64,000 nt of DNA from Tachypleus tridentatus (taxonomy: Eukaryota > Arthropoda > Merostomata > Xiphosura > Limulidae), in assembly GCF_004210375.1 (NCBI RefSeq), contig NC_134834.1, forward strand, positions 10,091,857 to 10,155,856, read 5' to 3'. The stretch's first letter is position 1. Every line of letters starts with the position of its first letter. The translations under genes and the position numbers were made by a program. Positions 27,783 through 53,431 of this stretch are shown piece by piece. The notes beneath the pieces are model-generated. The model searched no databases and had not been told where the DNA came from. It saw only the letters and a program-made list of their open reading frames with translations.

Positions 27783-27845
27783 ATGGACAGTGAGTTGATA
27801 TGTAATTTCAAGAAATGTAGGAAGAAACTTTCATCGCTTGCGTGG
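27783..27845 (+). CDS. CCNB1IP1: HEI10 coding exon 1 (RING start)
   Basis: ATG at 27783 gives 21 codons, MDSELICNFKKCRKKLSSLA plus W, up to a good GTATGT donor at 27846. C7 and C12 form the C-x4-C pair that opens the HEI10 RING (human CNYRKC), and the KL..AW ending also matches. The exon ends in phase 0. Upstream pyrimidine/AG sequence at 27771 suggests that a non-coding exon precedes it. Confidence 0.85.
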
Positions 27846-28331
27846 GTATGTTGCAACAATAACCAAATAATATAGTTACATTTGGTCTGCAGTTAGAAGA
27901 ATTGTAACCTTATTTCTAAAGTATTTATGGTTTGAACATTTTAAAATCCGTTTTACCTGTGACTAATCAAGATGTTCCATCAAAAAACAATTACGATAGC
28001 TATAACTGAAATTATTAAAATCGTTGAATTATTTGAAACAGCATTATATATAATTAATTAGCATTATAATTAATTAACATCATAATTAAATACATTATAG
28101 TTAATTAACATTATAATTAATTACATTATAATTAACCAAATTGTTTTAATTTTTCAGGTGACTTCCTGTTCTCATATCCTTTTTAATTTTTACATTTATA
28201 ATTTTTGTCTAAAGTTATTAAGTTTTGGTCATTAAAACAGTCTTTAGTACACAAAATAGAAGTTATTCGTAGTTTATTAAATAAAATTGGAATATTTCTT
28301 AAGTGCGTAAGAAGACACACACACACATATA

Positions 28332-29912
28332 CACTGCTGCCAAAATCTTAAGGCCAATGAACATAAAGAAAAAATATGCATTTTGCGTTGTTAGACTCAA
28401 CCACTTATTTGAGTAGAGCTTCAAAAGATGAAAATAAGAAAAGGGAAAATAAAAATAAAAAACTTTTTAACATTTAATAGGGAAAATGCGATCACTGTGA
28501 AATTAGCCTAAATATTAGATGGTCAAAAGTTTAGACCATACCAAAAAGAAGTCCTAAACAGGGTAGGAAATGCCCAACAAGAGGTCTCAGTAGTGAGTTG
28601 AACGAATGTCATTGCGAATAACTTCAACCATTCGCTTTGGCATGGTCGATATAAGTGTTTTCAGAAGGCTGGCTGGAATGTTATTCCAAGTGGTGAAGAT
28701 GGCTTCACGATGATCATGCACTGTTTGGAACTGACGTCCATTTCTATAGACTTCCCTTGCCATCCACCCCCAAACATTTTCAATGGGGTTCAGTTCGGAC
28801 GAATACGCTGAATGGTCCAAAAGAATCACGTTATTCGCCATGAAAAATTCCTTTGCCTGCGGGCATTGTGGATTGCAGCGTTATCCTGATGAAAGGTCCA
28901 GTCATTTTCACACAAGCGAGGGCCTTCAGTCAATAAGGATGTTCTCTCCAACATGCCAATGTAGCCAGCTGCTGTTTGACGCCCCTGTATAACCTGAAGT
29001 TCCATTGTTCTATGGAAAAAGAAAGCACCCCAAATCGCGATGGAACCTCCTCCACTGTGTCGTGTAGAAAATGTCATGGGTAGGATATCCTTATCGTGCC
29101 AGTAACGTTGGAAGCCATCTGGTCCATCCAGGTTAATTTTTTTCTCATCAGAGAACAAAACCTTCGTCCACTTTTTTCGTCCCATTTTTGGTGCTTCTTA
29201 ACAAAGTTTAACCGAGCTGTTTCGTGGTGCGGAAGGAGACGTGGCCTTTGAATACGTTTACGGTTTTAAAAGCCTTTTTTTCGCATGTGCCGTTTTATTG
29301 TTCTTTAGCTGCATTCTGCGTCCGTAAGGGTCTTAATCTGGTTCGACGATCGCCTGGTGTCTTGCCGGACAACCCGTCGAATCCTCCTGCTCAACGCCGG
29401 CGAAATTTTCTTGGACCGACCACTTGAAATTCTCGTTCCGTATCCTTCAGGATCTTTTAAGAAATTTGCAACAGCAGTTTTACTACGTTCAATCTCACCA
29501 GTGATGACACGTTGAGAGAGACCTTGTTTTTACAGCTCGACAATTCTGCCACGTTCAAACTCTGTCAACTTTTCAGCCTTTGCCATGTTTTTACCCAATG
29601 TAACACAGGAGATGTCAGTGGGATATGTTGACAACGCTAATGCTTGAACACAAATGACTAAATTTCGTTACGTGTTCACCGATTAACGCTTTGTGTCAGT
29701 ATGGTCTTAAACTTTTGACCAGCTAGTATTTAGGCTAATTTCACAGTGTTCACATTTTTACTATTAAATACTAAAAAGGTTTTTTATTTTTATTTTTTCC
29801 TTTTCTTATTTTCATCTTTTGAAGCTCTACTCAAATAAGTGGTTGAGTCGAACAACGCAAAATGCAAATTATTTTTTTATGTTCATTGGCTTTAAGGTTT
29901 TGGCTAGCAGTG
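28332..29912 (-). mobile_element. Tc1-like transposon with long terminal inverted repeats
   Basis: The ends cactgctgccaaaatcttaa (left) and, on the minus strand, cactgctagccaaaacctta (right) begin inverted repeats of about 215 bp that stay highly similar down to aaaagtttagaccatac. TA lies immediately outside both ends (28330-28331, 29913-29914), as expected for Tc1/mariner. The element is 1581 bp and carries one broken transposase on the minus strand. It sits in HEI10 intron 1, opposite to the gene. Confidence 0.93.
28587..29586 (-). pseudogene. Broken Tc1-like transposase
   Basis: Minus strand from ATG at 29586. The N-terminal helix-turn-helix part (MAKAEKLTEFERGRIVEL) is followed by in-frame stops after RIVEL, after the DAECS stretch and after KKGF. 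The DDE core is readable: [15 protein letters not shown] (first D), [12 protein letters not shown] (second D), then a one-base loss near 28855 and, in the next frame, [19 protein letters not shown] and ELNPIENVWGWMAREV (E). With the frame restored, the second D and the E are 34 residues apart (DD34E). It ends at RSTHY stop, 28587. Inactive. Confidence 0.9.
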
Positions 29913-30284
29913 TATGTATTGAATTGGGCAGTATTCATATGCTTCAGACACTAGTTAAATTCCCTACTTTCCTTGATTAGAACTGAAATTTTACTAAATC
30001 ATAGGAAAAACTGAAGTTTCATAAGTGTTGTTCTCTCTGTCAAGGGATCTCAGAAATTTCCTATAGCAATTGAACGTCGTTTCTCTGTGTTGAGAAACTG
30101 ATAGGAACACAAAATCAATAAGGAAAATGGTGGTGTTGTAGATTTAGTTAGAATAATAATGTGACATGTGCATCTTAGAGTGTGTATTTTGATCTTAAGT
30201 GTTTTTTTTATCATAGCTTCCCAGTTTTTGTATTGTTTATGACATCATTTTCTCTGGTTTTGATTCTCACGATTCCTACTTATT

Positions 30285-30545
30285 GGCCTGACATGGCCAG
30301 GCAGTTAAGGCACTCAACTCGTAATCTGAGGGTCGCGGGTTCGAGTCCCTGTCACACCAAACATTCTCGCCCTTTCAGCCGTGGGGGTGTATTAATGTGA
30401 CGGTCAATCGCACTATTCGTTGGTAAAAGAGTAACCCAAGAGTTGGCGGTGAGTGGTGATGACTAGTTGTCTTACTGTACTAAATTAGGGTCGGCTAGCG
30501 CAGATAGCTCTCGTGTATCTTTGCGCGAAATTCTAACCAAACCAA
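30285..30545 (+). mobile_element. tRNA-derived SINE, family A, in HEI10 intron 1
   Basis: The best-preserved head in the window: ggcctgacatggccaggcag, ttaaggcactcaactcgtaa, tctgagggtcgcgggttcga, gtccctgtcacaccaaacat. A and B boxes are intact. The body ends in tttgcgcgaaattctaacca. Orientation is the same as the host gene. Confidence 0.88.
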
Positions 30546-30960
30546 ACACTACTTATTTCTCCACTTAAAATTGCGAGGGTGTTAAAACTGGGTCTCTGTG
30601 TGTGTGTTTCCACGCACGTATCTTGAAATCTAATAGATCCAATATTTCATTTACCAGTAATAGATAGGTTAAATAATTATGTTGAGGGTTTGTTTGTTGA
30701 TAACGGCAAATTGCGAGACAACAGGCTATCTGTGCTGTCTTCAGGTTTACCTCTGAGTTACAGTGCCACAAGGGGAACTATAGAAACGAAATTGCAGCGT
30801 AATGTATTGAACCCATTGGGGTGTCAAAGTAAAAAACACAAACAGGTGGTCCAAGAACAATGTTTTAGAACCATTTATATAAAGATCCACCTTATGTTTA
30901 TTTTGTTGAAGGTTTTAAACTTAGAATAGGGTATAAAGAAAAGTGTTAAAACTATGAAAG

Positions 30961-31046
30961 TCTTTACCTTACTATTTGCATTGTACATATCTTTTGTAAT
31001 GAAGATGGTACTAGGGAATTTGAAAAGGCATTTGTTTGCCCAGCTT
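30961..31046 (+). CDS. CCNB1IP1: HEI10 coding exon 2 (RING core), 5' end uncertain
   Basis: The end is clear: HIFCNEDGTREFEKAFVCPA plus the first base of the next Cys codon, then a perfect GTAAGT donor at 31047. This matches human HIFC...CPAC. The start is unclear. The only AG close upstream ends at 30960, but reading from there in the phase left by exon 1 gives ...YYLHCTY and then a stop, out of frame with HIFC. Two extra bases in TGTACAT (for example TGTACACAT) would give C-T-H-I-F-C, the canonical C-x-H-x2-C, and would also make the whole coding length divisible by three. Sequence error or lesion is my inference. The acceptor context (gaaag) is weak. Confidence 0.65.
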
Positions 31047-31288
31047 GTAAGTATAATTTGTTAATTTTGTATTTTAAATGTATAGAAATACGTATGTGTG
31101 AGCAAGAACTGTGATGTTACGAAGTTTGTATTCAACATGGTTAGAATGATTTGTTTTGTGAAGTCTATCGGTCAATCCAGTTTAACCAGATTTTTTTAAC
31201 AACTTAATGAGGATTAAGTCAAAATTAATATTTTCTGCAGCTATTTTGTGACAGAACAACCACTTTTATGGCATTTTTGTCTCACTAG

Positions 31289-31359
31289 GTGACTCTGTGT
31301 TACAAGAGAAGTTTGATATTATAAGAGTCGACATGAATCCAACAGAGCAGTACAAGTCG
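31289..31359 (+). CDS. CCNB1IP1: HEI10 coding exon 3
   Basis: Follows ...ctcactag. GT completes the split Cys codon of CPAC, then DSVLQEKFDIIRVDMNPTEQ and YKS, ending at a GTAAGC donor (31360). It aligns with human STLSGKLDIVRTELSPSEEYK. Ends in phase 0. Confidence 0.85.
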
Positions 31360-31587: not shown

Positions 31588-31662
31588 ATGGTGTTGGTAG
31601 GGCAGAAACCAGAAGTTATTCATGAAATTTGTACCAGGGCTATTTCTTTTTGGAATTATCAG
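31588..31662 (+). CDS. CCNB1IP1: HEI10 coding exon 4
   Basis: After ttttcacag, 25 codons starting MVLVGQKPEVIHEICTRAIS and ending FWNYQ before a GTACAT donor (31663). This is the most conserved HEI10 block (human MVLAGLRPE...FWTYQ). Both ends are phase 0, so skipping the exon would keep the frame. Confidence 0.88.
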
Positions 31663-31791
31663 GTACATTTATTTATATTTGAAGAGACGTAGTTGGTTTT
31701 GTCAATACAGTTTGTGGGTGTTTATACAACAGAAACATGTAAGAAAACTACGTTTACCATACGTTGATGGTAACAGTAACAACATAAAGTA

Positions 31792-32297
31792 CAGCGGAGC
31801 GCCGTTAAGCCGCGGTATTTGAGGGGTCAACCTACTAAACCGCGGATTAAATCTTTGTGACTGAAAAGCCGAAGTCGCCAACACCTCCGCCGAGGAGCCT
31901 CATCCGGGCCATTGCGTGATCATTATATCGGGTTATCAAATTAAAAATAATACTTTAATTATTGATCACTTTTTTCACGGATTTACCGCGGATTAACTTT
32001 GTATGGAGAGTTGTGATTCGGTAACAATGGCGGACTCCATAAATCTGACATAGAGAGCGGATAAGGTAGATCAACGGTCGATTTCTATTGTAATATATTT
32101 TATTTATTTCCCAAATTAAAGCAAATCCTTTTGAAACATCCCCTTGAAGTTATAAAGCCAGGATTAAATTCGTAAGCCGCGTTTTTACACGTTCTTAAAT
32201 TAGCGGTGAACCGCGATAATCCTCGCTCACAAGACTTGCTACAGCGGCTTCAGCGATTTCGCGTTTTACTGGTCCGCGGCTTAATGGCGCTCCACTT
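31792..32297. mobile_element. GC-rich non-autonomous element with terminal inverted repeats
   Basis: The left end agcggagcgccgttaagccg cgg (31792-31814) is inverted at the right end as agtggagcgccattaagccg cgg (rc of 32274-32297), 21 of 23 identical. The interior (about 460 bp) has further ccgcggatta motifs and no ORF. Its GC-rich ends stand out from the AT-rich surroundings. The superfamily is not recognised and no clean target-site duplication was seen. Confidence 0.75.
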
Positions 32298-32454
32298 CAG
32301 TTATATAAATACAGGTTATCAAACTCTTTGAAAAATACAAAACACAAATTAATTGTACCAAAATCAGATAAATTTCAATAGGTATATCTTCTAAAACCCT
32401 GTGGTGAAAGCATCTAACAAAGAAGATATTGAGGTATCTCATGTCATCAGCACG

Positions 32455-35400
32455 TTAAATTATAAACCAGGAAAGGTTAAGAAAACACTACAAAATGGAA
32501 GGTTGAATTATAAACTAGGAAAGGATAAGAAAAAAGAATACAAAATGGTAGGTTGAATTATAAACTAGGAAAGGATAAGAAAAAAGAATACAAAATGGTA
32601 GGTTGAATTATAAACTAGGAAAGGATAAGAAAAAAGAATACAAAATGGTAGGTTGAATTATAAACTAGGAAAGGATAAGAAAAAAAGAATACAAAATGGT
32701 AGGTTGAATTATAAACTAGGAAAGGATAAGAAAAAAAGAATACAAAATGGTAGGTTGAATTATAAACTAGGAAAGGATAAGAAAAAAGAATACAAAATGG
32801 AAGGTTGAATTATAAACTAGGAAAGGATAAGAAAAAAGAATACAAAATGGAAGGTTGAATTATAAACTAGGAAAGGGTAAGAAAAAAGAATACAAAATGG
32901 AAGGTTGAATTATAAACTAGGAAAGGGTAAGAAAAAAAAGAATACAAAATGGAAGGTTGAATTATAAACTAGGAAAGGGTAAGAAAAAAGAATACAAAAT
33001 GGAAGGTTGAATTATAAACTAGGAAAGCGTTAGAAAAAAGAATACAAAATGGAAGGTTGAATTATAAACTGGGAAAGGGTTAGAAAAAAGAATACAAACT
33101 GGGAAAGCTTTAGAAAAAATAATACAAAATGGAAGGTTGAATTATAAACTGGGAAAGGGTAAGAAAAAAGAATACAAAATGGAAAGTTGAATTATAAACT
33201 AGGAAAGAGTGAAAAAAAAAGAATACAAAATGGAAAGTTGAATTATAAACTAGGAAAGAGTGAAAAAAAAATAATACAAAATGGAAAGTTGAATTATAAA
33301 CTAGGAAAGAGTGAAAAAAAAAAAATACAAAATGGAAGGTTGAATTATAAACTAGGAAAGAGTGAAAAAAAAAAATACAAAATGGAAGGTTGAATTATAA
33401 ACTAGGAAAAGAGTGAAAAAAATACAAAATGGAAAGTTGAATTATAAACTAGGAAAGAGTGAAAAAAAAGAATACAAAATGGAAAGTTGAATTATAAACT
33501 AGGAAAGAGTGAAAAAAGAATACAAAATGGAAAATTGAATTATAAACTGGAAAGAGTGAAAAAAAAACAAAATGGAAAGTTGAATTATAAACTAGGAAAG
33601 AGTGAAAAAAAAATACAAAATGGAAAGTTGAATTATAAACTAGGAAGAGTGAAAAAAAAGAATACAAAATGGAAGGTTGAATTATAAACTAGGAAAGAGT
33701 AAAAAAAAAGAATAAAAATGGAAAGTTGAATTATAAACTAGGAAAGAGTGAAAAAAAAAAATACAAAATGGAAAGTTGAATTATAAACTAGGAAAGAGTG
33801 AAAAAAAAAGAATACAAAATGGAAAGTTGAATTATAAACTAGGAAAGAGTGAAAAAAAAAGAATACAAAATGGAAAGTTGAATTATAAACTAGGAAAGAG
33901 TGAAAAAAAAAATACAAAATGGAAGGTTGAATTATAAACTAGGAAAGAGTGAAAAAAAAAAGAATACAAAATGGAAGGTTGAATTATAAACTAGGAAAAG
34001 AGTGAAAAAAAAAAATACAAAATGGTAGGTTGAATTATAAACTAGGAAAGAGTGAAAAAAAAAAGAATACAAAATGGAAAGTTGAATTATAAACTAGGAA
34101 AGAGTGAAAAAAAAGAATACAAAATGGAAAGTTGAATTATAAACTAGGAAAGAGTGAAAAAAAGAATACAAAATGGAAGGTTGAATTATAAACTAGGAAA
34201 GAGTTAAAAAAAAAAAGAATACAAAATGGAAAGTTGAATTATAAACTAGGAAAGAGTGAAAAAAAAAGAATACAAAATGGAAAGTTGAATTATAAACTAG
34301 GAAAGAGTAAAAAAAAAGAATACAAAATGGAAAGTTGAATTATAAACTAGGAAAGAGTGAAAAAAAAGAATACAAAATGGAAAGTTGAATTATAAACTAG
34401 GAAAAGAGTAAAAAAAGAATACAAAATGGAAGGTTGAATTATAAACTAGGAAAGGGTTAAGAAAAAAAAAAATACAAAATGGAAGGTTGAATTATAAACT
34501 AGGAAAGGGTAAGAAAAAAATACAAAATGGAAGGTTGAATTATAAACTAGGAAAGGGTTAAAGAATAAAATGGAAAGTTGAATTATAAACTAGGAAAAGA
34601 GTAAAAAAAAAATAAAAATGGAAGGTTGAATTATAAACTAGGAAAGAGTGAAAAAAAGAATACAAAATGGAAAGTTGAATTATAAACTAGGAAAGAGTGA
34701 AAAAAAAAGAATACAAAATGGAAAGTTGAATTATAAACTAGGAAAGAGTTAGAAAAAATCAGGAAGGTTGAATTAATACAAAATGGAAAAATTATAAACT
34801 AGGAAAGAGTGAAAAAAAAAGAATACAAAATGGAAAGTTGAATTATAAACTAGGAAAGAGTGAAAAAAAAGAATACAAAATGGAAAGTTGAATTATAAAC
34901 TAGGAAAGAGTGAAAAAAAATACAAAATGGAAAGTTGAATTATAAACTAGGAAAGAGTGAAAAAAAAAAGAATACAAAATGGAAGGTTGAATTATAAACT
35001 AGGAAAGAGTGAAAAAAAATACAAAATGGAAAGTTGAATTATAAACTAGGAAAGAGTGAAAAAAAAAAAAATACAAAATGGAAAGTTGAATTATAAACTA
35101 GGAAAGAGTGAAAAAAAAAATACAAAATGGAAAGTTGAATTATAAACTAGGAAAGAGTGAAAAAAAGAATACAAAATGGAAAGTTGAATTATAAACTAGG
35201 AAAGAGTGAAAAAAAAAATACAAAATGGAAGGTTGAATTATAAACTAGGAAAGAGTGAAAAAAAAAATGAATACAAAATGGAAAGGTTGAATTATAAACT
35301 AGGAAAGAGTGAAAAAAAAAAAGAATACAAAATGGAAGGTTGAATTATAAACTAGGAAAGGGTTAGAAAAAAAAAGAATACAAAATGGAAAGGTTGAATT

Positions 35401-38400
35401 ATAAACTAGGAAAGGGTTAGAAAAAAGAATACAAAATGGAAAGTTGAATTATAAACTAGGAAAGAGTTAAAAAAAAAGAATACAAAATGGAAGGTTGAAT
35501 TATAAACTAGGAAAGAGTAAAAAAAAAAGAATACAAAATGGAAGGTTGAATTATAAACTAGGAAAGAGTGAAAAAAAAGAATACAAAATGGAAGGTTGAA
35601 TTATAAACTAGGAAAGGTGAAAAAAAAAGAATACAAAATGGAAGGTTGAATTATAAACTAGGAAAGAGTGAAAAAAAAGAATACAAAATGGAAGGTTGAA
35701 TTATAAACTAGGAAAGAGTGAAAAAAAAGAATACAAAATGGAAGGTTGAATTATAAACTAGGAAAGAGTGAAAAAAAAAGAATACAAAATGGAAGGTTGA
35801 ATTATAAACTAGGAAAGAGTGAAAAAAAAGAATACAAAATGGAAAGTTGAATTATAAACTAGGAAAGAGTGAAAAAAAAACAAAATGGAAGGTTGAATTA
35901 TAAACTAGGAAAAGAGGAATACAAAATGGAAAGTTGAATTATAAACTAGGAAAGAGTGAAAAAAAAAAATACAAAATGGAAAAATTATAAACTAGGAAAG
36001 AGTACAAAATGGAAAGTTGAATTATAAACTAGGAAAGAGTGAAAAAAAAAGAATACAAAATGGAAGGTTGAATTATAAACTAGGAAAGAGTGAAAAAAAA
36101 AAGAATACAAAATGGAAAGTTGAATTATAAACTAGGAAAGAGTGAAAAAAAGAATACAAAATGGAAAGTTGAATTATAAACTAGGAAAGAGTGAAAAAAA
36201 AGAATACAAAATGGAAAGTTGAATTATAAACTAGGAAAGAGTGAAAAAAAGAATACAAAATGGAAAGTTGAATTATAAACTAGGAAAGGTGAAAAAAAAA
36301 GAATACAAAATGGAAGGTTGAATTATAAACTAGGAAAGAGTGAAAAAAAAGAATACAAAATGGAAAGTTGAATTATAAACTAGGAAAAGAGTGAAAAAAA
36401 AAAAATAAAAATGGAAGGTTGAATTATAAACTAGGAAAGAGTGGAAAAGAATACAAAATGGAAAGTTGAATTATAAACTAGGAAAGAGTGAAAAAAAGAA
36501 TACAAAATGGAAAGTTGAATTATAAACTAGGAAAGAGTGAAAAAAAAAGAATACAAAATGGAAAGTTGAATTATAAACTAGGAAAGAGTGAAAAAAAATA
36601 CAAAATGGAATTATAAACTAGGAAATGGAAAAAAAAAATTGGATTGAATTAAACTAGGAAAGAGTGAAAAAAAAAAGAATACAAAATGGAAAGTTGAATT
36701 ATAAACTAGGAAAGAGTGAAAAAAGGAAAGAGTGAAAAAAAGAATACAAAATGGAAAGTTGAATTATAAACTAGGAAAGAGTTGAAAAAAAAGAATAAAA
36801 ATGGAAAGTTGAATTATAAACTAGGAAAGAGTGAAAAAAAAGAATACAAAATGGAAAGTTGAATTATAAACTAGGAAAGAGTGAAAAAAAAAGGATACAA
36901 AATGGAAAGTTGAATTATAAACTAGGAAAGAGAAAAAAAAATACAAAATGGAAAGTTGAATTATAAACTAGGAAAAGAGTGAAAAAAATACAAAATGGAA
37001 AGTTGAATTATAAACTAGGAAAGAGTGAAAAAAAAATACAAAATGGAAGGTTGAATTATAAACTAGGAAAGAGTGAAAAAAAAAGAATACAAAATGGAAG
37101 GTTGAATTATAAACTAGGAAAGAGTGAAAAAAAAAGAATACAAAATGGAAAGTTGAATTATAAACTAGGAAAGAGAGAAAAAAAAAGAATACAAAAAGGA
37201 AAGTTGAATTATAAACTAGGAAAGAGTGAAAAAAAGAAAATACAAAATGGAAAGTTGAATTATAAACTAGGAAAGAGTGAAAAAAAAATACAAAATGGAA
37301 AGTTGAATTATAAACTAGGAAAGAGTGAAAAAAAATACAAAATGGAAGGTTGAATTATAAACTAGGAAAAGAGTGAAAAAAAAAGAATACAAAATGGAAA
37401 GTTGAATTATAAACTAGGAAAGAGTGAAAAAAAAAGAATACAAAATGGAAAGTTGAATTATAAACTAGGAAAGAGTGAAAAAAGAATACAAAATGGAAAG
37501 TTGAATTATAAACTAGGAAAGAGTGAAAAAAAAGAATACAAAATGGAAGGTTGAATTATAAACTAGGAAAGAGTGAAAAAAAGAATACAAAATGAAAGTT
37601 GAATTATAAACTAGGAAAGAGTGAAAAAAAAAGAATACAAAATGGAAAGTTGAATTATAAACTAGGAAAGAGTGAAAAAAAGAATACAAAATGGAAAGTT
37701 GAATTATAAACTAGGAAAGAGTGAAAAAAAAGAATACAAAATGGAAAGTTGAATTATAAACTAGGAAAAAAAAATACAAAATGGAAAGTTGAATTATAAA
37801 CTAGGAAAGAGTGAAAAAAAAGAATACAAAATGGAAAGTTGAATTATAAACTAGGAAAGAGTGAAAAAAAGAATACAAAATGGAAAGTTGAATTATAAAC
37901 TAGGAAAGAGTGAAAAAAAAAGAATACAAAATGGAAAGTTGAATTATAAACTAGGAAAGAGTGAAAAAAAGAATACAAAATGGAAGGTTGAATTATAAAC
38001 TAGGAAAAGAGTGAAAAAAAAATACAAAATGGAAAGTTGAATTATAAACTAGGAAAGAGTGAAAAAAAAGAATACAAAATGGAAAGTTGAATTATAAACT
38101 AGGAAAGAGTACAAAATGGAAAAAAAAAACTAGGAAAATACAAAATGGAAAGTTGAATTATAAACTAGGAAAGAGTGAAAAAAATACAAAATGGAATACA
38201 AAAACTGGAAAAGGTTGAATTATAAACTAGGAAAGAGTTGAAAAAAAAAAAAGAATACAAAATGGAAAGTTGAATTATAAACTAGGAAAGAGTGAAAAAA
38301 AAGAATACAAAATGGAAGGTTGAATTATAAACTAGGAAAGGGTTAGAAAAAAGAATACAAAATGGAAGGTTGAATTATAAACTAGGAAAGGGTGAAAAAA

Positions 38401-41400
38401 AAGAATACAAAATGGAAAGTTGAATTATAAACTGGGAAAGGGTAAGAAAAAAGAATACAAAATGGAAAGTTGAATTATAAACTAGGAAGGAGTGAAAAAA
38501 AAAGAATACAAAATGGAAAGTTGAATTATAAACTAGGAAAGAGTGAAAAAAAAGAATACAAAATGGAAAGTTGAATTATAAACTAGGAAAGAGTGAAAAA
38601 AAGAATACAAAATGGAAAGTTGAATTATAAACTAGGAAAGAGTGAAAAAAAGAATACAAAATGGAAGGTTGAATTATAAACTAGGAAAGAGTTAAAAAAA
38701 AAGAATACAAAATGGTAGGTTGAATTATAAACTGGGAAAGGGTTAGAAAAAAGAATACAAAATGGAAGGTTGAATTATAAACTAGGAAAGAGTTAAAAAA
38801 AAGAATACAAAATGGAAAGTTGAATTATAAACTAGGAAAGAGTGAAAAAAAAAGAATACAAAATGGAAAGTTGAATTATAAACTAGGAAAGAGTGAAAAA
38901 AAAATACAAAATGGAAAGTTGAATTATAAACTAGGAAAGAGTGAAAAAAAAAGAATACAAAATGGAAAGTTGAATTATAAACTAGGAAAGAGTGAAAAAA
39001 AGAATACAAAATGGAAAGTTGAATTATAAACTAGGAAAGAGTGAAAAAAAAAAAATACAAAATGGAAAGTTGAATTATAAACTAGGAAAGAGTGAAAAAA
39101 AAAGAATACAAAATGGAAAGTTGAATTATAAACTAGGAAAGAGTGAAAAAAAAGAATACAAAATGGAAAGTTGAATTATAAACTAGGAAAGAGTGAAAAA
39201 AAAAGAATACAAAATGGAAAGTTGAATTATAAACTAGGAAAGAGTGAAAAAAAAAATACAAAATGGAAAGTTGAATTATAAACTAGGAAAGAGTGAAAAA
39301 AAAAATACAAAATGGAAAGTTGAATTATAAACTAGGAAAGAGTGAAAAAAAAAAGAATACAAAATGGAAAGTTGAATTATAAACTAGGAAAGAGTGAAAA
39401 AAAAGAATACAAAATGGTAGGTTGAATTATAAACTAGGAAAGGGTAAGAAAAAAGAATACAAAATGGAAGGTTGAATTATAAACTAGGAAAAGAGTGAAA
39501 AAAAAAAGAATACAAAATGGAAAGTTGAATTATAAACTAGGAAAGAGTGAAAAAAAAAGAATACAAAATGGAAAGTTGAATTATAAACTAGGAAAGAGTG
39601 AAAAAAAGAATACAAAATGGAAAGTTGAATTATAAACTAGGAAAGAGTGAAAAAAAAAAATACAAAATGGAAAGTTGAATTATAAACTAGGAAAGAGTGA
39701 AAAAAAAGAATACAAAATGGAAAGTTGAATTATAAACTAGGAAAGTGAAAAAAAAAAAGAATACAAAATGGAAAGTTGAATTATAAACTAGGAAAGAGTG
39801 AAAAAAAAGAATACAAAATGGAAAGTTGAATTATAAACTAGGAAAAGAGTGAAAAAAAGAATACAAAATGGAAAGTTGAATTATAAACTAGGAAAGAGTG
39901 AAAAAAAAAGAATACAAAATGGAAAGTTGAATTATAAACTAGGAAAGAGTGAAAAAAGAATACAAAATGGAAAGTTGAATTATAAACTAGGAAAAGAGTG
40001 AAAAAAAAAAAATACAAAATGGAAAGTTGAATTATAAACTAGGAAAAGAGTGAAAAAAAAAATACAAAATGGAAAGTTGAATTATAAACTAGGAAAAGAG
40101 TGAAAAAAAAATACAAAATGGAAAGTTGAATTATAAACTAGGAAAGAGTGAAAAAAAAATACAAAATGGAAGGTTGAATTATAAACTAGGAAAGAGTGAA
40201 AAAAAATACAAAATGGAAGGTTGAATTATAAACTAGGAAAGAGTGAAAAAAAAAGAAACAAAATGGAAAGTTGAATTATAAACTAGGAAAGAGTGAAAAA
40301 AAGAATACAAAATGGAAGTTGAATTATAAACTAGGAAAGTGAAAAAAAGAATACAAAATGGAAAGTTGAATTATAAACTAGGAAAGAGTGAAAAAAAAAT
40401 ACAAAATGGAAGGTTGAATTATAAACTAGGAAAGAGTGAAAAAAAAAATACAAAATGGAAAGTTGAATTATAAACTAGGAAAAGTGAAAAAAAAAGAATA
40501 CAAAATGGAAAGTTGAATTATAAACTAGGAAAGAGTGAAAAAAAGAATACAAAATGGAAAGTTGAATTATAAACTAGGAAAGAGTGAAAAAAAAAAAATA
40601 CAAAATGGAAAGTTGAATTATAAACTAGGAAAGAGTGAAAAAAAAAAATACAAAATGGAAGGTTGAATTATAAACTAGGAAAGAGTGAAAAAAAAAAAAT
40701 ACAAAATGGAAAGTTGAATTATAAACTAGGAAAGAGTGAAAAAAAAAGAATACAAAATGGAAAGTTGAATTATAAACTAGGAAAGAGTGAAAAAAAAAGA
40801 ATACAAAATGGAAAGTTGAATTATAAACTAGGAAAGAGTGAAAAAAAAAAAGAATACAAAATGGAAAGTTGAATTATAAACTAGGAAAGAGTGAAAAAAA
40901 AAATACAAAATGGAAAGTTGAATTATAAACTAGGAAAGAGTTGAAAAAAAAGAATACAAAATGGAAAATGTTGAATTATAAACTAGGAAAGAGTGAAAAA
41001 AAAGAATACAAAATGGAAGGTTGAATTATAAACTAGGAAAGAGTGAAAAAAAAGAATACAAAATGGAAAGTTGAATTATAAACTAGGAAAGAGTGAAAAA
41101 AAAGAATACAAAATGGAAAGTTGAATTATAAACTAGGAAAGAGTGAAAAAAAAAATACAAAATGGAAAGTTGAATTATAAACTAGGAAAGAGTGAAAAAA
41201 AAAGAATACAAAATGGAAAGTTGAATTATAAACTAGGAAAGAGTGAAAAAAAGAATACAAAATGGAAGGTTGAATTATAAACTAGGAAAGAGTGAAAAAA
41301 AAGAATACAAAATGGTAGGTTGAATTATAAACTAGGAAAGGGTTAGAAAAAAGAATACAAAATGGAAGGTTGAATTATAAACTAGGAAAGGGTAAGAAAA

Positions 41401-44400
41401 AAGAATACAAAATGGAAAGTTGAATTATAAACTAGGAAGGAGTGAAAAAAAAAGAATACAAAATGGAAGGTTGAATTATAAACTAGGAAAGGAGTGAAAA
41501 AAAAAGAATACAAAATGGAAAGTTGAATTATAAACTAGGAAAGAGTGAAAAAAAAAGAATACAAAATGGAAAGTTGAATTATAAACTAGGAAAGAGTAAA
41601 AAAAGAATACAAAATGGAAAGTTGAATTATAAACTAGGAAAGAGTGAAAAAAAAAGAATACAAAATGGAAAGTTGAATTATAAACTAGGAAAGAGTGAAA
41701 AAAAAATACAAAATGGAAGGTTGAATTATAAACTGGGAAAGGGTTAGAAAAAAGAATACAAAATGGTAGGTTGAATTATAAACTAGGAAAGAGTTAAAAA
41801 AAAGAATAATAAAAATGGAAGGTTGAATTATAAACTGGGAAAGAGTGAAAAAAAAAGAATACAAAATGGAAAGTTGAATTATAAACTAGGAAAGAGTTAA
41901 AAAAAAGAATACAAAATGGAAAGTTGAATTATAAACTAGGAAAGAGTGAAAAAAAAATACAAAATGGAAAGTTGAATTATAAACTAGGAAAGAGTGAAAA
42001 AAAAAAGAATACAAAATGGAAAGTTGAATTATAAACTAGGAAAGAGTGAAAAAAAAGAATACAAAATGGAAAGTTGAATTATAAACTAGGAAAGAGTGAA
42101 AAAAAAAGAATACAAAATGGAAAGTTGAATTATAAACTAGGAAAGAGTGAAAAAAAAAAGACAAAATGGAAAGGTTGAATTATAAACTAGGAAAGAGTGA
42201 AAAAAAAAAATGAATTGAATTATAAACTAGGAAGAGTGAAAAAAAGAATGAATTGAATTAAAACTAGGAAAGAGTGAAAAAAAAGAATACAAAATGGAAG
42301 GTTGAATTATAAACTAGGAAAAGAGTGAAAAAAAAGAATACAAAATGGAAAGTTGAATTATAAACTAGGAAAGAGTGAAAAAAAAGAATACAAAATGGAA
42401 AGTTGAATTATAAACTAGGAAAGAGTGAAAAAAAAAAATACAAAATGGAAAGTTGAATTATAAACTAGGAAAGAGTGAAAAAAAAGAATACAAAATGGAA
42501 AGTTGAATTATAAACTAGGAAAGAGTGAAAAAAAGAATACAAAATGGAAAGTTGAATTATAAACTAGGAAAGAGTGAAAAAAAAAATACAAAATGGAAAG
42601 TTGAATTATAAACTAGGAAAGAGTGAAAAAAAAGAATACAAAATGGAAAGTTGAATTATAAACTAGGAAAGAGTTAGAAAAAACAAAATGGAATACAAAA
42701 TGGAAGGAAAGTTGAATTATAAACTGGAGGAAATTAGGGAAAAAAAAAGAATACAAAATGGAAAGTTGAATTATAAACTAGGAAAGAGTGAAAAAAAAGA
42801 ATACAAAATGGAAAGTTGAATTATAAACTAGGAAAGAGTGAAAAAAAAGAATACAAAATGGAAAGTTGAATTATAAACTAGGAAAGAGTGAAAAAAAAGA
42901 ATACAAAATGGTAGGTTGAATTATAAACTGGGAAAGGGTTAGAAAAAAGAATACAAAATGGTAGGTTGAATTATAAACTAGGAAAGGGTAAGAAAAAAAG
43001 AATACAAAATGGAAGGTTGAATTATAAACTAGGAAAGGGTAAGAAAAAGAATACAAAATGGAAAGTTGAATTATAAACTAGGAAGGGTGTGAAAAAAAAG
43101 AATACAAAATGGAAGGTTGAATTATAAACTAGGAAAGAGTGAAAAAAAGAATACAAAATGGAAAGTTGAATTATAAACTAGGAAAGAGTGGGAAGAAAAA
43201 AAAAAAAGAATACAAAATGGAAAGTTGAATTATAAACTAGGAAAGAGTGAAAAAAAGAATACAAAATGGAAGGTTGAATTATAAACTAGGAAAGAGTGAA
43301 AAAAAAGAATACAAAATGGTAGGTTGAATTATAAACTGGGAAAGGGTTAGAAAAAAGAATACAAAATGGTAGGTTGAATTATAAACTAGGAAAGAGTTAA
43401 AAAAAAAAGAATACAAAATGGAAAGTTGAATTATAAACTAGGAAAAGTGAAAAAAAAAGAATACAAAATGGAAAGTTGAATTATAAACTAGGAAAGAGTT
43501 AAAAAAAAAGAATACAAAATGGAAAGTTGAATTATAAACTGGGAAAGAGTGAAAAAAAAAGAATACAAAATGGAAGGTTGAATTATAAACTAGGAAAGAG
43601 TTAAAAAAAAAGAATACAAAATGGAAAGTTGAATTATAAACTGGGAAAGAGTGAAAAAAAAAGAATACAAAATGGAAAGTTGAATTATAAACTAGGAAAG
43701 AGTGAGAAAAAAGAATACAAAATGGAAAGTTGAATTATAAACTAGGAAAGAGTGAAAAAAAAAAATACAAAATGGAAAGTTGAATTATAAACTAGGAAAG
43801 AGTGAAAAAAAAGAATACAAAATGGAAGGTTGAATTATAAACTAGGAAAGAGTGAAAAAAAAAGAATACAAAATGGAAAGTTGAATTATAAACTAGGAAA
43901 GAGTGAAAAAAAAAAGAATACAAAATGGAAAGTTGAATTATAAACTAGGAAAGAGTGAAAAAAAAAGAATACAAAATGGAAAGTTGAATTATAAACTAGG
44001 AAAGAGTGAAAAAAAAGAATACAAAATGGAAAGTTGAATTATAAACTAGGAAAGAGTGAAAAAAAGAATACAAAATGGAAAGTTGAATTATAAACTAGGA
44101 AAGAGTGAAAAAAAAAAATGAATACAAAATGGAAAGTTGAATTATAAACTAGGAAAGAGTGAAAAAAAAGAATACAAAATGGAAGGTTGAATTATAAACT
44201 AGGAAAGAGTGAAAAAAAAAGAATACAAAATGGAAAGTTGAATTATAAACTAGGAAAGAGTGAAAAAAAAAATTAGAATACAAAATGGAAAGTTGAATTA
44301 TAAACTAGGAAAGAGAGTGAAAAAAAGAATACAAAATGGAAAGTTGAATTATAAACTAGGAAAGAGTGAAAAAAAAAGAATACAAAATGGAAAGTTGAAT

Positions 44401-47090
44401 TATAAACTAGGAAAGAGTGAAAAAAAATACAAAATGGAAAGTTGAATTATAAACTAGGAAAGAGTGAAAAAAAAAAATACAAAATGGAAAGTTGAATTAT
44501 AAACTAGGAAAGAGTGAAAAAAAAGAATACAAAATGGAAAGTTGAATTATAAACTAGGAAAGAGTGGGAAAAAAGAATACAAAATGGAAAGTTGAATTAT
44601 AAACTAGGAAAGAGTGAAAAAAAAGAATACAAAATGGAAAGTTGAATTATAAACTAGGAAAGAGTGAAAAAAAGAATACAAAATGGAAAGTTGAATTATA
44701 AACTAGGAAAGAGTGAAAAAAAAGAATACAAAATGGAAAGTTGAATTATAAACTAGGAAAGAGTGAAAAAAAGAATACAAAATGGAAAGTTGAATTATAA
44801 ACTAGGAAAGAGTGAAAAAAAAGAATACAAAATGGAAAGTTGAATTATAAACTAGGAAAGAGTTAAAAAAAAGAATACAAAATGGAAAGTTGAATTATAA
44901 ACTAGGAAAAGAGTGAAAAAAAAAAAGAATAAAGAGTGAAAAAAATGGAAAGTTGAATTATAAACTAGGAAAGAGAAAAAAAAAGAATACAAAATGGAAA
45001 GTTGAATTATAAACTAGGAAAGAGTGAAAAAAAGAATACAAAATGGAAAGTTGAATTATAAACTAGGAAAGAGTGAAAAAAAGAATACAAAATGGAAAGT
45101 TGAATTATAAACTAGGAAAGAGTGAAAAAAAATAAAATGGAAGGTTGAATTATAAACTAGGAAAGAGTGAAAAAAAGAATACAAAATGGAAAGTTGAATT
45201 ATAAACTAGGAAAGAGTGAAAAAAAAAGAATACAAAATGGAAAGTTGAATTATAAACTAGGAAAGAGTGAAAAAAAAGAATACAAAATGGAAAGTTGAAT
45301 TATAAACTAGGAAAGAGTGAAAAAAAAATACAAAATGGAAAGTTGAATTATAAACTAGGAAAAGAGTGAAAAAAAAAAAGAATACAAAATGGAAAGTTGA
45401 ATTATAAACTAGGAAAGAGTGAAAAAAAAGAATACAAAATGGAAAGTTGAATTATAAACTAGGAAAGAGTGAAAAAAAAGAATACAAAATGGAAGATTGA
45501 ATTATAAACTAGGAAAGGGTTAGAAAAAAGAATACAAAATGGAAGGTTGAATTATAAACTAGGAAAGGGTTAGAAAAAAGAATACAAAATGGAAAGTTGA
45601 ATTATAAACTAGGAAAGGGTAAGAAAAAAGAATACAAAATGGAAAGTTGAATTATAAACTAGGAAAGGGTAAGAAAAAATAATACAAAATGGAAAGTTGA
45701 ATTATAAACTAGGAAAGAGTGAAAAAAAGAATACAAAATGGAAAGTTGAATTATAAACTAGGAAAGAGTGAAAAAAAAAGAATACAAAATGGAAAGTTGA
45801 ATTATAAACTAGGAAAGAGTGAAAAAAAAAAGAATACAAAATGGAAAGTTGAATTATAAACTAGGAAAGAGTGAAAAAAAAGAATACAAAATGGAAAGTT
45901 GAATTATAAACTAGGAAAGAGTGAAAAAAAAGAATACAAAATGGAAGATTGAATTATAAACTAGGAAAGGGTTAGAAAAAAGAATACAAAATGGAAGGTT
46001 GAATTATAAACTAGGAAAGGGTTAGAAAAAAGAATACAAAATGGAAAGTTGAATTATAAACTAGGAAAGGGTAAGAAAAAAGAATACAAAATGGAAAGTT
46101 GAATTATAAACTAGGAAAGGGTAAGAAAAAATAATACAAAATGGAAAGTTGAATTATAAACTAGGAAAGAGTGAAAAAAAGAATACAAAATGGAAAGTTG
46201 AATTATAAACTAGGAAAGAGTGAAAAAAAAAAAAAACAAAATGGAAAGTTGAATTATAAACTAGGAAAAGAGTGAAAAGAATACAAAATGGAAAGTTGAA
46301 TTATAAACTAGGAAAGAGTGAAAAAAAAGAATACAAAATGGAAAGTTGAATTATAAACTAGGAAAGGGTAAGAAAAAATAATACAAAATGGAAAGTTGAA
46401 TTATAAACTAGGAAAGGGTAAGAAAAAATAATACAAAATGGAAAGTTGAATTATAAACTAGGAAAGAGTGAAAAAAAAGAATACAAAATGGAAAGTTGAA
46501 TTATAAACTAGGAAAGAGTGAAAAAAAAGAATACAAAATGGAAAGTTGAATTATAAACTAGGAAAGAGTGAAAAAAAAGAATACAAAATGGAAAGTTGAA
46601 TTATAAACTAGGAAAGAGTGAAAAAAAAAAAGAATACAAAATGGAAAGTTGAATTATAAACTAGGAAAGAGTGAAACAAAAAAGAATACAAAATGGAAAG
46701 TTGAATTATAAACTAGGAAAGAGTGAAAAAAAAAGAATACAAAATGGAAAGTTGAATTATAAACTAGGAAAGAGTGAAAAAAAAGAATACAAAATGGAAA
46801 GTTGAATTATAAACTAGGAAAGAGTGAAAAAAAAAGAATACAAAATGGAAAGTTGAATTATAAACTAGGAAAGAGTGAAAAAAGAATACAAAATGGAAAG
46901 TTGAATTATAAACTAGGAAAGAGTGAAAAAAAGAATACAAAATGGAAGGTTGAATTATAAACTAGGAAAGAGTGAAAAAAAAAGAATACAAAATGGAAAG
47001 TTGAATTATAAACTAGGAAAGAGTGAAAAAAAAGAATACAAAATGGAAAGTTGAATTATAAACTAGGAAAGAGTGAAAAAAGAGTGAACA
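32455..47090. repeat. 14.6-kb A-rich minisatellite, about 49-51-bp unit, nearly 300 copies
   Basis: The unit reads gaatacaaaatggaaagttg, aattataaactaggaaagag, then tg(a)6-12. Length varies with the A-run. Two unit types alternate in patches: aaagagtgaaaaaa (most) and aaagggt(t)a(a)gaaaaaag (32490-33180, 34440-34560, 38340-38460, 41330-41400, 42910-43060, 45490-45690, 45943-46140, 46350-46440). The plus strand is about 78% purine. Frames of 60-124 codons (repeats of KLNYKLGKSEKKRIQNG) appear only where units happen to be 51 bp and are not genes. Broken units occur near 36600-36650, 38110-38210 and 42660-42740. Confidence 0.96.
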
Positions 47091-47702
47091 GTTATTATTA
47101 TTAAACAGACAATGGAAGAATGAATTATAAACTTTAAGAAAAGAGAAAGAAGTTAAAAAGAAAGATTTCATGATGAACTGGGATATATAAAAAGAAACAA
47201 AAGAAATTTAGAATTTCAAATTAGGAAGTGATTGAGAAGGTTTTAAAAATGATTTATTATGAAATGAGTAAATAACAAATATTGTAATATCCAAATCTAG
47301 TGACATTTTTATTATTAAAGTGTGTTATTTTTACATTTTGTGTTAATAGCAAGGTACTAGGTGCATTCAGGTCACTGTAGATTTTAACATATTTGTGTAT
47401 GTATGTGTGACTATTAATGTATGACCATGTTTACTACAGTGATCTACACAGTTTGTTGTGTAGAATTAGCTTTATCTATTTACGGTTGATTTGTGGAGTT
47501 ACTGTACCTTTGTTCAGAAGAAACATTTATTTTATTTACATATTCAAGTTTAGGAATCTGAACTCTTGGAAGATACCTTGACAAAGGCTCATAAATTGGT
47601 TTCTGTTATTTTTGTAGATTGGGTGAGGTTTTAAAGAAGTTTGGTGTTTTTAAGTCACATGAAACGTTTCATTCTGGATTTTTAAAGGAATCTTTTTCTC
47701 AG

Positions 47703-47817
47703 GTGTATCAAGAAGTCATGTACCAGGAGTACACAGCAAAGAAGAATAAGGACCGTTTGGTTCAATTGGAACAATATTATGAACAGGTTTTAGAAAAAGC
47801 AAAGGCAGAAATAACGT
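47703..47817 (+). CDS. CCNB1IP1: HEI10 coding exon 5 (start of coiled coil)
   Basis: After aatctttttctcag: VYQEVMYQEYTAKKNKDRLV, QLEQYYEQVLEKAKAEIT, aligning with human VHQERLYQEYNFSKAEGHL. The start is phase 0, as exon 4 requires. The donor is weak: GTATCC at 47818 gives phase 1, which is what exon 6 needs, while the neighbouring GT at 47816 gives the wrong phase. Confidence 0.8.
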
Positions 47818-49217
47818 GTATCCTTATTCAGTTCCCACAAACCTGTATTTATTACAGATCGAAAGGAATGTTTTGTTATTTCATGATGGGACTCAGTTTT
47901 GAAAATCCTTACACTATGTAACAAAATGTTTACTGTTTCCTGTTCCTGGACAGAAAGTGTTATTTCCCAGTTGCTTATGCCTAAAGTAAATGGAAAAGAC
48001 CAGTTTTTCTCTTCGAACTTTGCTTTTGTGACCTGGGAGTGTATAACAAAAACATGATGGGAGATGATATTTGGGAGCTGATACGTGAAAGTGATTTACA
48101 TTACAGTCGCAAATCTCAAAAAACAACTCACTTCTAAACATGTTTGTGTAACTTTAGTATAAATACATGTAAATCTTGATTCATATGTTGTTTTATTCAG
48201 ACCTTATGTAAATGAAATTGTGTAGATTTGCCCATTTTTAAATAGAAAATTTCATTATCCAGGTCACAAAACCAAAGTTTGAAGGGAATAATGGCCATTT
48301 TCTGTACTTTTACAACATAAGCAGTTAAAAAGTAACACATACCATCCAGGGACTATCTTATGTGTATATTAAAATGTTGAAGTTCTGTAGAGGGATTAAG
48401 TATTATAGACCTGCTTTCATACATTTAGTACTTATAATCTGACAGTTGTTAAATTTAAATCTGTGTTAAGTTCTATCTCCATGTTTCTAGGTGACTGTAA
48501 CCGTTTATAACATGTAATCGGTTCTCTCTCGTTGAACTACCATAAATGAAGTAAAATTAAAATGAGTTAATGTGCTGTAAGTGCTTTAATTAAAGTAACA
48601 AAAAAAAACTTAAATAAATTTTTATACTGGTTTGTTTTAGCAGAAACAAATAATTTTCAGAAAATGTTTCAAATACATTTCTTTAATAAGTATCCAATTT
48701 AGATGCTAAACAACAGATTGAGAGTAAGTATATTATGTGTAACATGGCTGATTTTGAGCTGTTTGAAATTTATTTCGATCATTACACTATGATATATGTG
48801 GTGCCACATAAAATTATTAGGAAAGTCAATGCAGAAAAAGGTACCACAATTAATATTTTTTCATAAGTACATTTCACAGAGTATTTGGATAAAACAAATC
48901 TGTAAATAATACGTAATTTTTAGAAATAAAATATTTAACGTTTTCTGTTAATTCTGTAGTAAACAAAAGTATTTCGTTTAAAAACTAGATTCTTGTTGTA
49001 ACAATAGTTTATTATTACTCAGCATAATGTTTGAGTTCATCTTGGTATAGTTTTAACTCTTCATTTAAATTATACGTTTCTCAACGTGAATTACTTTAGC
49101 AAGAAATCTGTAGAAAAACATTTAATCCAGGCATAGCAAGAAAAAATAGTCAAGATAACCGTGAGTTACCAGTGACTTTTAACAGTTAGCATATGATATA
49201 ATAAATTCATATTATAG
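47818..49217 (+). other. HEI10 intron 5
   Basis: 1.4 kb of AT-rich DNA. No repeat or ORF recognised. Ends in aattcatattatag. Confidence 0.65.
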
Positions 49218-49415
49218 CAAAAAACAAAGAATTAGAAACTGAAAGGCAAAGAATTGCGGAGTTATCGGAAAGGTTGATGGAACAGAGGCGACAGTATCAG
49301 AAACTACAGTCGATGTATGAAACCATGAGAAGGAAAGCCATATCTCCAGCTATCTATCACAAATGTTCCACTGCACATAAAGGTGATGTTTCGTTTGGAA
49401 TGTGTACTGCAAATG
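49218..49415 (+). CDS. CCNB1IP1: HEI10 coding exon 6 (coiled coil)
   Basis: CA completes the split Ser codon, then KNKELETERQRIAELSERLM, EQRRQYQKLQSMYETMRRKA, then ISPAIYHKCSTAHKGD and FGMCTAN up to GTAAGT (49416). SERLMEQRRQYQKLQSMY matches human SEKLMERNRQYQKLQGLY almost residue for residue; this is the diagnostic match. Charged heptads indicate a coiled coil. Ends in phase 1. Confidence 0.92.
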
Positions 49416-50639: not shown

Positions 50640-50708
50640 ATATCTTACGACCACAAGGGAACTGGATGGGTGACTACAACAGAAATAACTGTGTACAGCA
50701 GGCAGAAA
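50640..50708 (+). CDS. CCNB1IP1: HEI10 coding exon 7
   Basis: Between ttttacag and GTATGT: the first two bases finish an Asp codon, then ILRPQGNWMGDYNRNNCVQQ AE. Phase 1 to phase 1, consistent with exons 6 and 8. This tail region is poorly conserved in HEI10, so the call rests on splice signals and phase. Confidence 0.7.
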
Positions 50709-53279
50709 GTATGTAACTAACAAATTACAGGAACTCACTTTCGTTGTTATCAACTCATCCTATTTTTTGAAGTCTCAAGTAATCTGAGCTATCAGATAGA
50801 TGTGTAATATTTTATTTTTTGTGCATGCTTACCAATGTTTCAAAGCAGTTACAAATTAAAAAGAAATAACGTATCTGACATAAAGAAGACGGGTAATATA
50901 AGTGTTGATCAAAAGAAAACTTCATTATTCTATAACCCTATCAGTTTATCCTTTCCCTGTCAGAGACCAACTGTCAGTAAGTAGTTATTACTTTATTATG
51001 TGTTCTGGTCAGTAAGTAGTTATTACTTTATTATGTGTTCTGGTCAGTAAGTAGTTATTACTTTATTATGTGTTCTGGTCAGTAAGTAGTTATTACTTTA
51101 TTATGTGTTCTGGTCAGTAAGTGGTTATTACTTTATTATGTGTTCTGGTCAGTAAGTGGTTATTACTTTATTATGTGTTCTGGTCAGTAAGTGGTTATTA
51201 CTTTATTATGTGTTCTGGTCAGTAAGTGGTTATTACTTTATTATGTGTTCTGGTCAGTAAGTGGTTATTACTTTATTATGTGTTCTGGTCAGTAAGTGGT
51301 TATTACTTTATTACCTGTCCTGGGCAATAGTAGTTCTGGTCAGTAAGTATTTATTCTTTTATTATGTGTCCTGGTCAATGAGTGGTTATTACTTTATTAT
51401 GTGTCCTGGTCAGTGAGTGGTTATTCCTTCAGTAAGTGTCCTGGTCAGTGAGTGGTTATTCCTTCAGTAAGTGTCCTGGTCAGTGAGGGGTTATTCCTTC
51501 AGTAAGTGTCCTGGTCAGTGAGGGGTTATTCCTTCAGTAAGTGTCCTGGTCAGTGAGTGGTTATTCCTTCATTACGTGTCCTGGTCAGTGAGTGGTTATT
51601 CCTTCATTACGTGTCCTGGTCAGTGAGTGGTTATTCCTTCATTACGTGTCCTGGTCAGTGAGTGGTTATTCCTTCATTACGTGTCCTGGTCAGTGAGTGG
51701 TTATTCTCTCATAACGTGTCCTGGTCAGTGAGTGGTTATTCCCTCATTACGTGTCCTGGTCAGTGAGTGTTTATTCCCTCATTACGTGTCCTGGTCAGTG
51801 AGTGTTTATTCCCTCATTACGTGTCCTGGTCAGTGAGTGTTTATTCCCTCATTACGTGTCCTGGTCAGTGAGTGTTTATTCCCTCATTACGTGTCCTGGT
51901 CAATAGTAGTTCTGGTCAGTAAGTGGTTATTACTTTATTACATGTCCTGGCCAATGAGTGGTTATTACTTTATTACGTGTCCTGGCCAATGAGTGGTTAT
52001 TACTTTATTACATGTCCTGGGCAATAGTAGTTCTGGTCAGTAAGTGGTTATTACTTTATTACATGTCCTGGCCAATGAGTGGTTATTACTTTATTACGTG
52101 TCCTGGCCAATGAGTGGTTATTACTTTATTACATGTCCTGGGCAATAGTAGTTCTGGTCAGTAAGTATTTATTCCTTTATTATGTATTCTGGTCAATGAG
52201 TGGTTAATACTTATGTATCCTGGTCAATGAGTGGTTAATACTTATATATCCTGGTCAATGAGTGGTTATTACTTATGTATCCTGGTCAATGAGTGGTTAT
52301 TACTTATGTATCCTGGTCAATGAGTGGTTATTACTTATGTATCCTGGTCAATGAGTGGTTATTACTTTATTACGTGTTCTGATCAATGAGTGGTTATTAC
52401 TTTATTACATGTCCTGGGCAATAGTAGTTCTGGTCAGTAAGTGGTTATTACTTTATTACGTGTCCTGGGCAATAGTAGTTCTGGTCAGTAAGTGGTTATT
52501 ACTTTATTACATGTCCTGGCCAATGAGTGGTTATTACTTTATTACGTGTCCTGGCCAATGAGTGGTTATTACTTTATTACATGTCCTGGGCAATAGTAGT
52601 TCTGGTCAGTAAGTATTTATTCCTTTATTATGTATTCTGGTCAATGAGTGGTTAATACTTGTGTATCCTGGTCAATGAGTGGTTAATACTTATATATCCT
52701 GGTCAATGAGTGGTTATTACTTATGTATCCTGGTCAATGAGTGGTTATTACTTATGTATCCTGGTCAATGAGTGGTTATTACTTATGTATCCTGGTCAAT
52801 GAGTGGTTATTACTTATGTATCCTGGTCAATGAGTGGTTATTACTTATGTATCCTGGTCAATGAGTGGTTATTACTTTATTACGTGTTCTGATCAATGAG
52901 TGGTTATTACTTTATTACATGTTCTGGTCAATAAGTGGTTATTACTTTATTACATGTCCTGGGCAATAGTAGTTCTGGTCAGTAAGTAGTTATTACTTTA
53001 TTACATGTCCTTGGCAATAGTAGTTCTGGTCAGTAAGTATTTATTCCTTTATTATGTGTTCTGCTCAGTAAGTAGTTATTACTTCATGTAAGTACCCCAG
53101 TCAGTTAGTGGTTATCACTTCATGTACGTACCCTGGTTAGTAAGTAGTTATCACCTGGAGTTAGTTCGGATACTATACCATCTAGCGAGGAACCAAGGGT
53201 GATCAAAACATATTAGTTCTGTTTCTGCACAGTTTGTCACGTATTGGTCATATCTGATAAAAAGTACCTTTCATTGTAG
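50709..53279 (+). other. HEI10 intron 7
   Basis: 2.6 kb, of which about 2.2 kb is a 35-bp minisatellite (50970-53155). Ends in acctttcattgtag. Confidence 0.75.
50970..53155. repeat. 35-bp minisatellite, about 62 units, in HEI10 intron 7
   Basis: Units read ggtcagtaagtggttattac, tttattatgtgttct, with types such as gtcctggtcagtgagtggtt attccttcattac and tatcctggtcaatgagtggt tattact. Types are clustered in runs, and a block with gttctggtcagtaagtattt at 52151 recurs at 52599 (448 bp). A 68-codon ORF at 52355 is just repeat. Confidence 0.93.
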
Positions 53280-53431
53280 GAGAATTTGTTCTGAGACCTG
53301 TTCACACACCTCACAACAACAGTAGAATTGATGGCTTACAATTGTCTTCACTTGGAAACCGTCTTGTGGAACTAGAAAACCAGCAGCAATTCATGTGTAT
53401 GAAACAACAGGGACATAAAATTAAACAGTAA
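53280..53431 (+). CDS. CCNB1IP1: HEI10 last coding exon (8)
   Basis: After ttcattgtag the first two bases finish an Arg codon, then EFVLRPVHTPHNNSRIDGLQ, LSSLGNRLVELENQQQFMCM, KQQGHKIKQ and TAA at 53429-53431. The EFVLRP start recalls the human DFQFRPF segment, and both proteins have Gln-rich, basic C-terminal ends. No clear AATAAA was found close downstream. Confidence 0.78.

Follow-up and report, generated by a model that had tools for sequence, protein, structure and literature searches.

A window of 64,000 nucleotides from the horseshoe crab Tachypleus tridentatus (NCBI RefSeq assembly GCF_004210375.1, contig NC_134834.1, positions 10,091,857 to 10,155,856 of the forward strand) contains a gene that we read, with a probability of about 0.92, as the horseshoe-crab orthologue of HEI10/CCNB1IP1, predicted to have ten exons, with introns 2 and 6 of the minor type. 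The Coagulin family (PF02035) matches this assembly 19 times and 14 control genomes not at all, and one coagulogen exon agrees with PDB 1AOC, from Tachypleus tridentatus, at all 48 aligned residues, as befits a horseshoe crab; Coagulin is not known outside this group. HEI10, known from animals and plants, is a gene with a part in the placing of crossovers during egg and sperm formation. Splice sites were read along the plus strand, and the ten exons were joined and then checked for frame; the translated join is 840 nt long, that is, 279 codons and a stop, with no internal stop. As judged from the window, the gene is thus intact, with ten coding exons and a 279-residue protein, and transcription and splicing would follow the ten-exon model. 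An original prediction, made from the letters of the window, had described a complete HEI10 gene in eight tiny exons. Its start (ATG at 27783), its end (TAA, closing at 53431) and its ceiling of 200 bp per exon were correct, as no exon is longer than 198 bp. The eight exons are real, but the set was not complete, since two microexons of 16 and 21 nt had been overlooked. The prediction gave no per-exon coordinates, and its eight exons presumably correspond to the ten-exon set minus these two; joined at the boundaries of the present analysis, they stop after 52 codons and contain 11 internal stops.

The HEI10 identity was borne out by a phmmer search against all PDB sequences. The best of eight matches (expectation values, E, up to 1) is 9ges, human CCNB1IP1, at E = 2e-57, and the next is RNF4 at E = 7.7e-4; at the level of sequence, the resemblance to human CCNB1IP1 is not chance. 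The 9ges alignment spans residues 4–185 with a single one-residue gap and 84 of 182 aligned residues identical, and within it the conserved segment after the RING and the coiled coil align over their full length. The layout is predicted to run from an N-terminal RING through a conserved helical segment and a coiled coil to a variable tail; its first three parts are shared with human CCNB1IP1/HEI10, whereas the crab tail falls outside the 9ges alignment. The Cys/His positions of the RING also align, except that Asp replaces one His: at what we take to be the sixth RING position, the crab protein has Asp (CNED) and the human protein His (CDQH). By family function, the protein would be a meiotic RING protein of the ubiquitin-ligase type that promotes the maturation of designated crossovers, and by analogy the horseshoe-crab protein may act in meiosis. 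The peptides on which the original prediction relied were located on the plus strand (LICNFKKC at 27795, HIFCNEDG at 30986, CPAC at 31037, MVLVGQ at 31588 and FWNYQ at 31648), as were SERLMEQ at 49265 and RRQYQKLQ at 49286.

Some observations weigh against this reading or limit it. (i) The Pfam family zf-RING_5 matches at E = 6.5e-6 and 26.5 bits, slightly under its cut-off of 27.9. (ii) Past residue 185, in the last part of exon 8 and in exons 9 and 10, the support is limited to splice sites and frame. (iii) A second copy of the gene, described below, is too similar to serve as an independent test. A different gene of the Zip3 family, of the RNF212 type, would also be a RING coiled-coil protein, and PMC3405992 describes a like layout of RING, helix and coiled coil in the HEI10 and RNF212 groups. 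RNF212, which the original prediction had named as the competing identity, was compared directly, in the form of a provisional RNF212 sequence, and gives -1.0 bits where HEI10 gives 196.3; given also the rank of CCNB1IP1 and RNF4 in the PDB search, an RNF212-type gene is extremely improbable, and we rejected this identity.

The 16-nt microexon lies within the RING. Exon 1 closes in phase 0 at ...LAW, where the human protein goes on VTACSHIFC. The 16-nt exon is followed directly by ATATCCTTTTTA, and exon 3 starts after ...GCATTGTAC, finishing HIFC. The His of HIFC in the original prediction had been read off the last base of intron 2, which coincidentally is the same letter that ends the 16-nt exon. 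The prediction had also reported one misfit among seven junctions; this misfit is explained by the overlooked 16-nt exon and the AT-AC intron that follows it. We enumerated bridges between exons 1 and 3 with a GT-AG first intron, a GT-AG or AT-AC second intron and a microexon of 3–60 nt, requiring an open frame and a total within 14 residues of 47. The ATATCC...AC bridge with the exon at 28158–28173 ranks first of 3858 one-microexon models, with a score of 103. The next five score 84–89, all have AT-AC ends, and four of them start at 28158. Bridges restricted to GT-AG reached at best 74 and were rejected; those without any microexon reached at best 80. The RING is split over separate exons, and, as expected, a six-frame search of the whole assembly (2.17 Gb, 205 contigs) with the RING family PF14634 gave nine matches, none at the HEI10 locus; a Pfam search with the open reading frame (ORF) of exon 6 by itself returned no family. 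These results are in keeping with the earlier remark that ORF-based annotation would miss the gene.

Microexon 7 (48703–48723) tops 44 candidates between exons 6 and 8 with a score of 185, and restores a gapless coiled-coil alignment to the human protein. The gain is modest, with 181 for the next candidate and 174 without a microexon. Because exon 6 can join exon 8 in frame, microexon 7 is less certain than the 16-nt microexon. The gene would still be HEI10 if exon 6 joined exon 8 directly, giving 272 residues, or if an alternative transcript did so: the frame is kept, the match to human HEI10 falls only from 196.3 to 189.4 bits, and the second-best microexon trails by just four points. We nevertheless hold this direct join to be unlikely, with perhaps one chance in eight or so left to it in our judgment, since it opens a seven-residue gap inside an otherwise gapless coiled coil, since the donor of microexon 7 is strong (GTAAGTAT) and a U12-like branch site precedes this exon by ~16 nt, and since the donor of exon 6, GTATCCTTA, suits U12 rather than U2 splicing. 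The ten-exon model, with microexon 7 included, is given in Table 1.

Table 1. Predicted exons and selected introns of the HEI10/CCNB1IP1 gene (window coordinates)
Feature	Position	Strand	Remarks
Coding exon 1	27783..27845	+	ATG, RING start, MDSELICNFKKCRKKLSSLAW; donor GTATGT
Coding exon 2, 16-nt microexon	28158..28173	+	Encodes VTSCS and first base of His; acceptor TTTAATTTTTCAG
Intron 2, AT-AC, U12-type	28174..30986	+	2813 bp, phase 1; 5' ATATCCTTT, 3' AC
Coding exon 3	30987..31046	+	IFCNEDGTREFEKAFVCPA, RING end
Coding exon 4	31289..31359	+	DSVLQEKFDIIRVDMNPTEQYKS; within stretch aligned to 9ges
Coding exon 5	31588..31662	+	MVLVGQKPEVIHEICTRAISFWNYQ; within stretch aligned to 9ges
Intron 5	31663..47702	+	16 kb, largely 50-bp satellite array (33096-47081)
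Coding exon 6	47703..47817	+	VYQEVMYQEY..., coiled coil; aligned to 9ges
Intron 6, probable U12-type, GT-AG	47818..48702	+	Phase 1; 5' GTATCCTTA; branch-site candidate TTCTTTAAT, 48679-48687
Coding exon 7, 21-nt microexon	48703..48723	+	AKQQIE and partial codons at both ends
Coding exon 8	49218..49415	+	KNKELETERQ...SERLMEQRRQYQKLQ...; aligned to 9ges
Coding exon 9	50640..50708	+	Splice sites and frame only; beyond 9ges-aligned stretch
Coding exon 10 and stop TAA	53280..53431	+	Splice site and frame only; beyond 9ges-aligned stretch

Seven introns of the gene are of the ordinary GT-AG type. Intron 2 is, by its sequence, a U12-type intron: it runs from ATATCCTTT to AC at 30985–30986, in a position fixed by the reading frame, and the consensus of the U12-type 5' splice site is RTATCCTTT. 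Its branch-site candidate, CCTTACT (30967–30973), has its A 15 nt from the intron end and is complementary to AGUAAGG in the genome's own U12 small nuclear RNA (snRNA). Intron 6 is probably also U12-type; it ends in AG, the last letter of its donor is off the consensus, and TTCTTTAAT, the second A of which lies 16 nt before the intron end, has one mismatch to TTYCTTRAY. Both introns are in phase 1, and PMC10639083 notes the classic tendency of minor introns to avoid phase 0. The same paper places Limulus polyphemus among the protostomes relatively rich in minor introns and describes AT-AC and GT-AG subtypes, like the two crab introns. Motif counts speak against leaning on these signals by themselves. 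The donor motif RTATCCTTW is not rare in the window, with seven occurrences against a mean of 3.97 over 100 shuffles, and 12 of the shuffles had at least seven; CCTTACT differs from the branch-site consensus at one position; and motifs within one mismatch of TTYCTTRAY number 178 against 280 expected, below chance level. Branch-site motifs are weak evidence because they are common in the window and their total is below expectation; the U12 case rests instead on exact positions, namely a donor motif placed just where the frame requires two exons to end.

The U12 and U6atac snRNA genes of the assembly indicate that the organism has a minor spliceosome. The genome holds one full-length match to U12 (127.7 bits) and four to U6atac (best 128.3 bits), counts that are lower bounds, as only 44 and 46 candidates were scored, and all five pass cmscan. 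The three U6atac-like loci besides the best one, all above the gathering score, lie at G000:C4:81078628, C8:8296194 and C11:68671440 and may be functional copies or pseudogenes. An Rfam scan of the whole window gave no match.

Introns 2 and 6 would be expected to depend on the minor spliceosome for their removal. Either microexon has a U2-type intron on one side and a U12-type intron on the other; as U12 donors and U2 acceptors are not expected to pair, its skipping would be disfavored and its inclusion nearly obligatory. U12-type introns are slowly spliced as a class, and crossover recombination in Arabidopsis is reportedly controlled by HEI10 dosage. By analogy, HEI10 dosage in horseshoe crabs might be gated by minor-spliceosome activity, an idea that we regard as a long shot; if true, the amount of mature HEI10 mRNA, and hence crossover number, would depend on the capacity for U12-type splicing.

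Searching the whole genome with the protein produced 19 matches: eight exons of the window copy, eight of a second copy on the same contig (C10) and three weak matches on C7 (E 7.7–8.7); the microexons are missing because they are too short for this search. In the second copy, exons 1–5 lie on the minus strand (C10:10048726-10044713) and exons 6–10 on the plus strand (C10:10288265-10295575). All ten exons are present, the 16-nt exon included, with identical splice dinucleotides; the coding sequences differ at five of 840 positions, all synonymous, so the proteins are identical. Runs of 500 N start at C10:10020200, 10069144, 10176658 and 10270830, in a scan of 190 kb that covered 10020001–10100000 (10090001–10100000 only where it overlaps the window), 10150001–10180000 and 10240001–10330000, leaving out 10180001–10240000. 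Since these runs bound them, the two halves of the second copy lie on separate scaffolded pieces. Matches in both halves run into the satellite of intron 5, and whole-window blast comparison of the two copies was dominated by satellite matches; among non-satellite blocks (at least 300 bp, the top 12 for each query), identity is 97–99.5% in the main ones and 96% in one. The satellite itself is a 50-bp repeat of ~279 copies in which purines strongly predominate on the coding strand (GC skew as high as 0.675), and it is within this repeat that the second copy breaks.

The second copy is most likely the other haplotype, retained in the assembly and split at the satellite, to judge from these alignments. 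A separate functional gene was considered and rejected, given the identical protein, blocks mostly 97–99.5% identical and pieces bounded by 500-N runs; a very recent duplication could, strictly speaking, also have produced the copy. Reading it as the other haplotype leaves one HEI10 locus seen, despite several whole-genome duplications in the lineage (three rounds in horseshoe crabs, according to the title of PMC7815833). The fragmented state of the assembly hereabouts, with its 500-N gaps, its satellites and a second copy in two parts, might suggest that the window gene is itself a pseudogene in decay or an artifact of misassembly. This is very improbable, as all ten exons, the introns and the splice sites are intact with no stop, the window contains no N, and all five coding differences between the two copies are synonymous.

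HEI10 in arthropods is not new. In PMC3405992, HEI10-like sequences are reported from ascomycetes, arthropods and nematodes, with Aedes aegypti in the alignment, so that the original prediction overstated the rarity of its find: arthropod HEI10 was in print by 2012. Its statement that Drosophila has lost HEI10 agrees with the same paper, which finds no HEI10 in Drosophila melanogaster or C. elegans; in PMC6336347, the three Drosophila proteins belong to the Zip3-RNF212 group. HEI10 of Arabidopsis and Aedes aegypti, as described in PMC3405992, has an N-terminal RING and a coiled coil, as in the crab, a likeness drawn from description. In the main texts of open-licence papers, we found no link of HEI10/CCNB1IP1 to minor introns, PMC9941101 naming CCNB1IP1, in the part consulted, only as a host of small nucleolar RNA unconnected to minor introns. 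The open-licence literature likewise yielded no paper pairing CCNB1IP1 with the horseshoe crab and none joining the minor spliceosome with meiotic crossover. The gene is thus an expected member of a known family, and an automatic annotation of it probably exists; what is added here is the ten-exon model, a corrected one for a chelicerate crossover regulator, together with two likely minor introns. A gene finder limited to GT-AG introns would break the RING domain at the AT-AC intron, and the gene offers a well-defined case in which control of a meiotic gene by minor introns could be tested.

Other features lie within and around the gene. Intron 2 contains a Tc1/mariner-like element (28347–29883), with a 90.7% copy at C10:10259680-10261212; its DDE_3 match is below cut-off and a hint only. 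Pfam searches with eight window ORFs gave three weak matches, all below curated cut-offs: AF_2299-like_N (8.5e-4) and IL1 (0.01), neither of which was used, and DDE_3 (0.073). Intron 9 carries a family of 31–35-bp minisatellites (50973–52974). Past the stop codon, the nearest AATAAA/ATTAAA lies at 54789, in a search as far as 56000. Upstream, a 63-bp satellite (1–10411, ~166 copies, 96% matches) is open in several frames, with stop-to-stop ORFs of up to 1293 codons that are unlikely to be genes. It is followed at 11330–12207 by what we presume, from its motifs, to be a C-terminal exon resembling the CaV2/cacophony calcium channel, ending in DDWC; Pfam gave nothing for this ORF, and a PDB search with the ORF at 11330–12076 gave no match. 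A one-base difference in a T run separates the window copy of this exon from the second copy and shifts the frame of the window copy, probably an assembly error. Toward the other end of the window (61868–63225), fragments resemble by eye the endonuclease and reverse transcriptase of a non-long-terminal-repeat retrotransposon.

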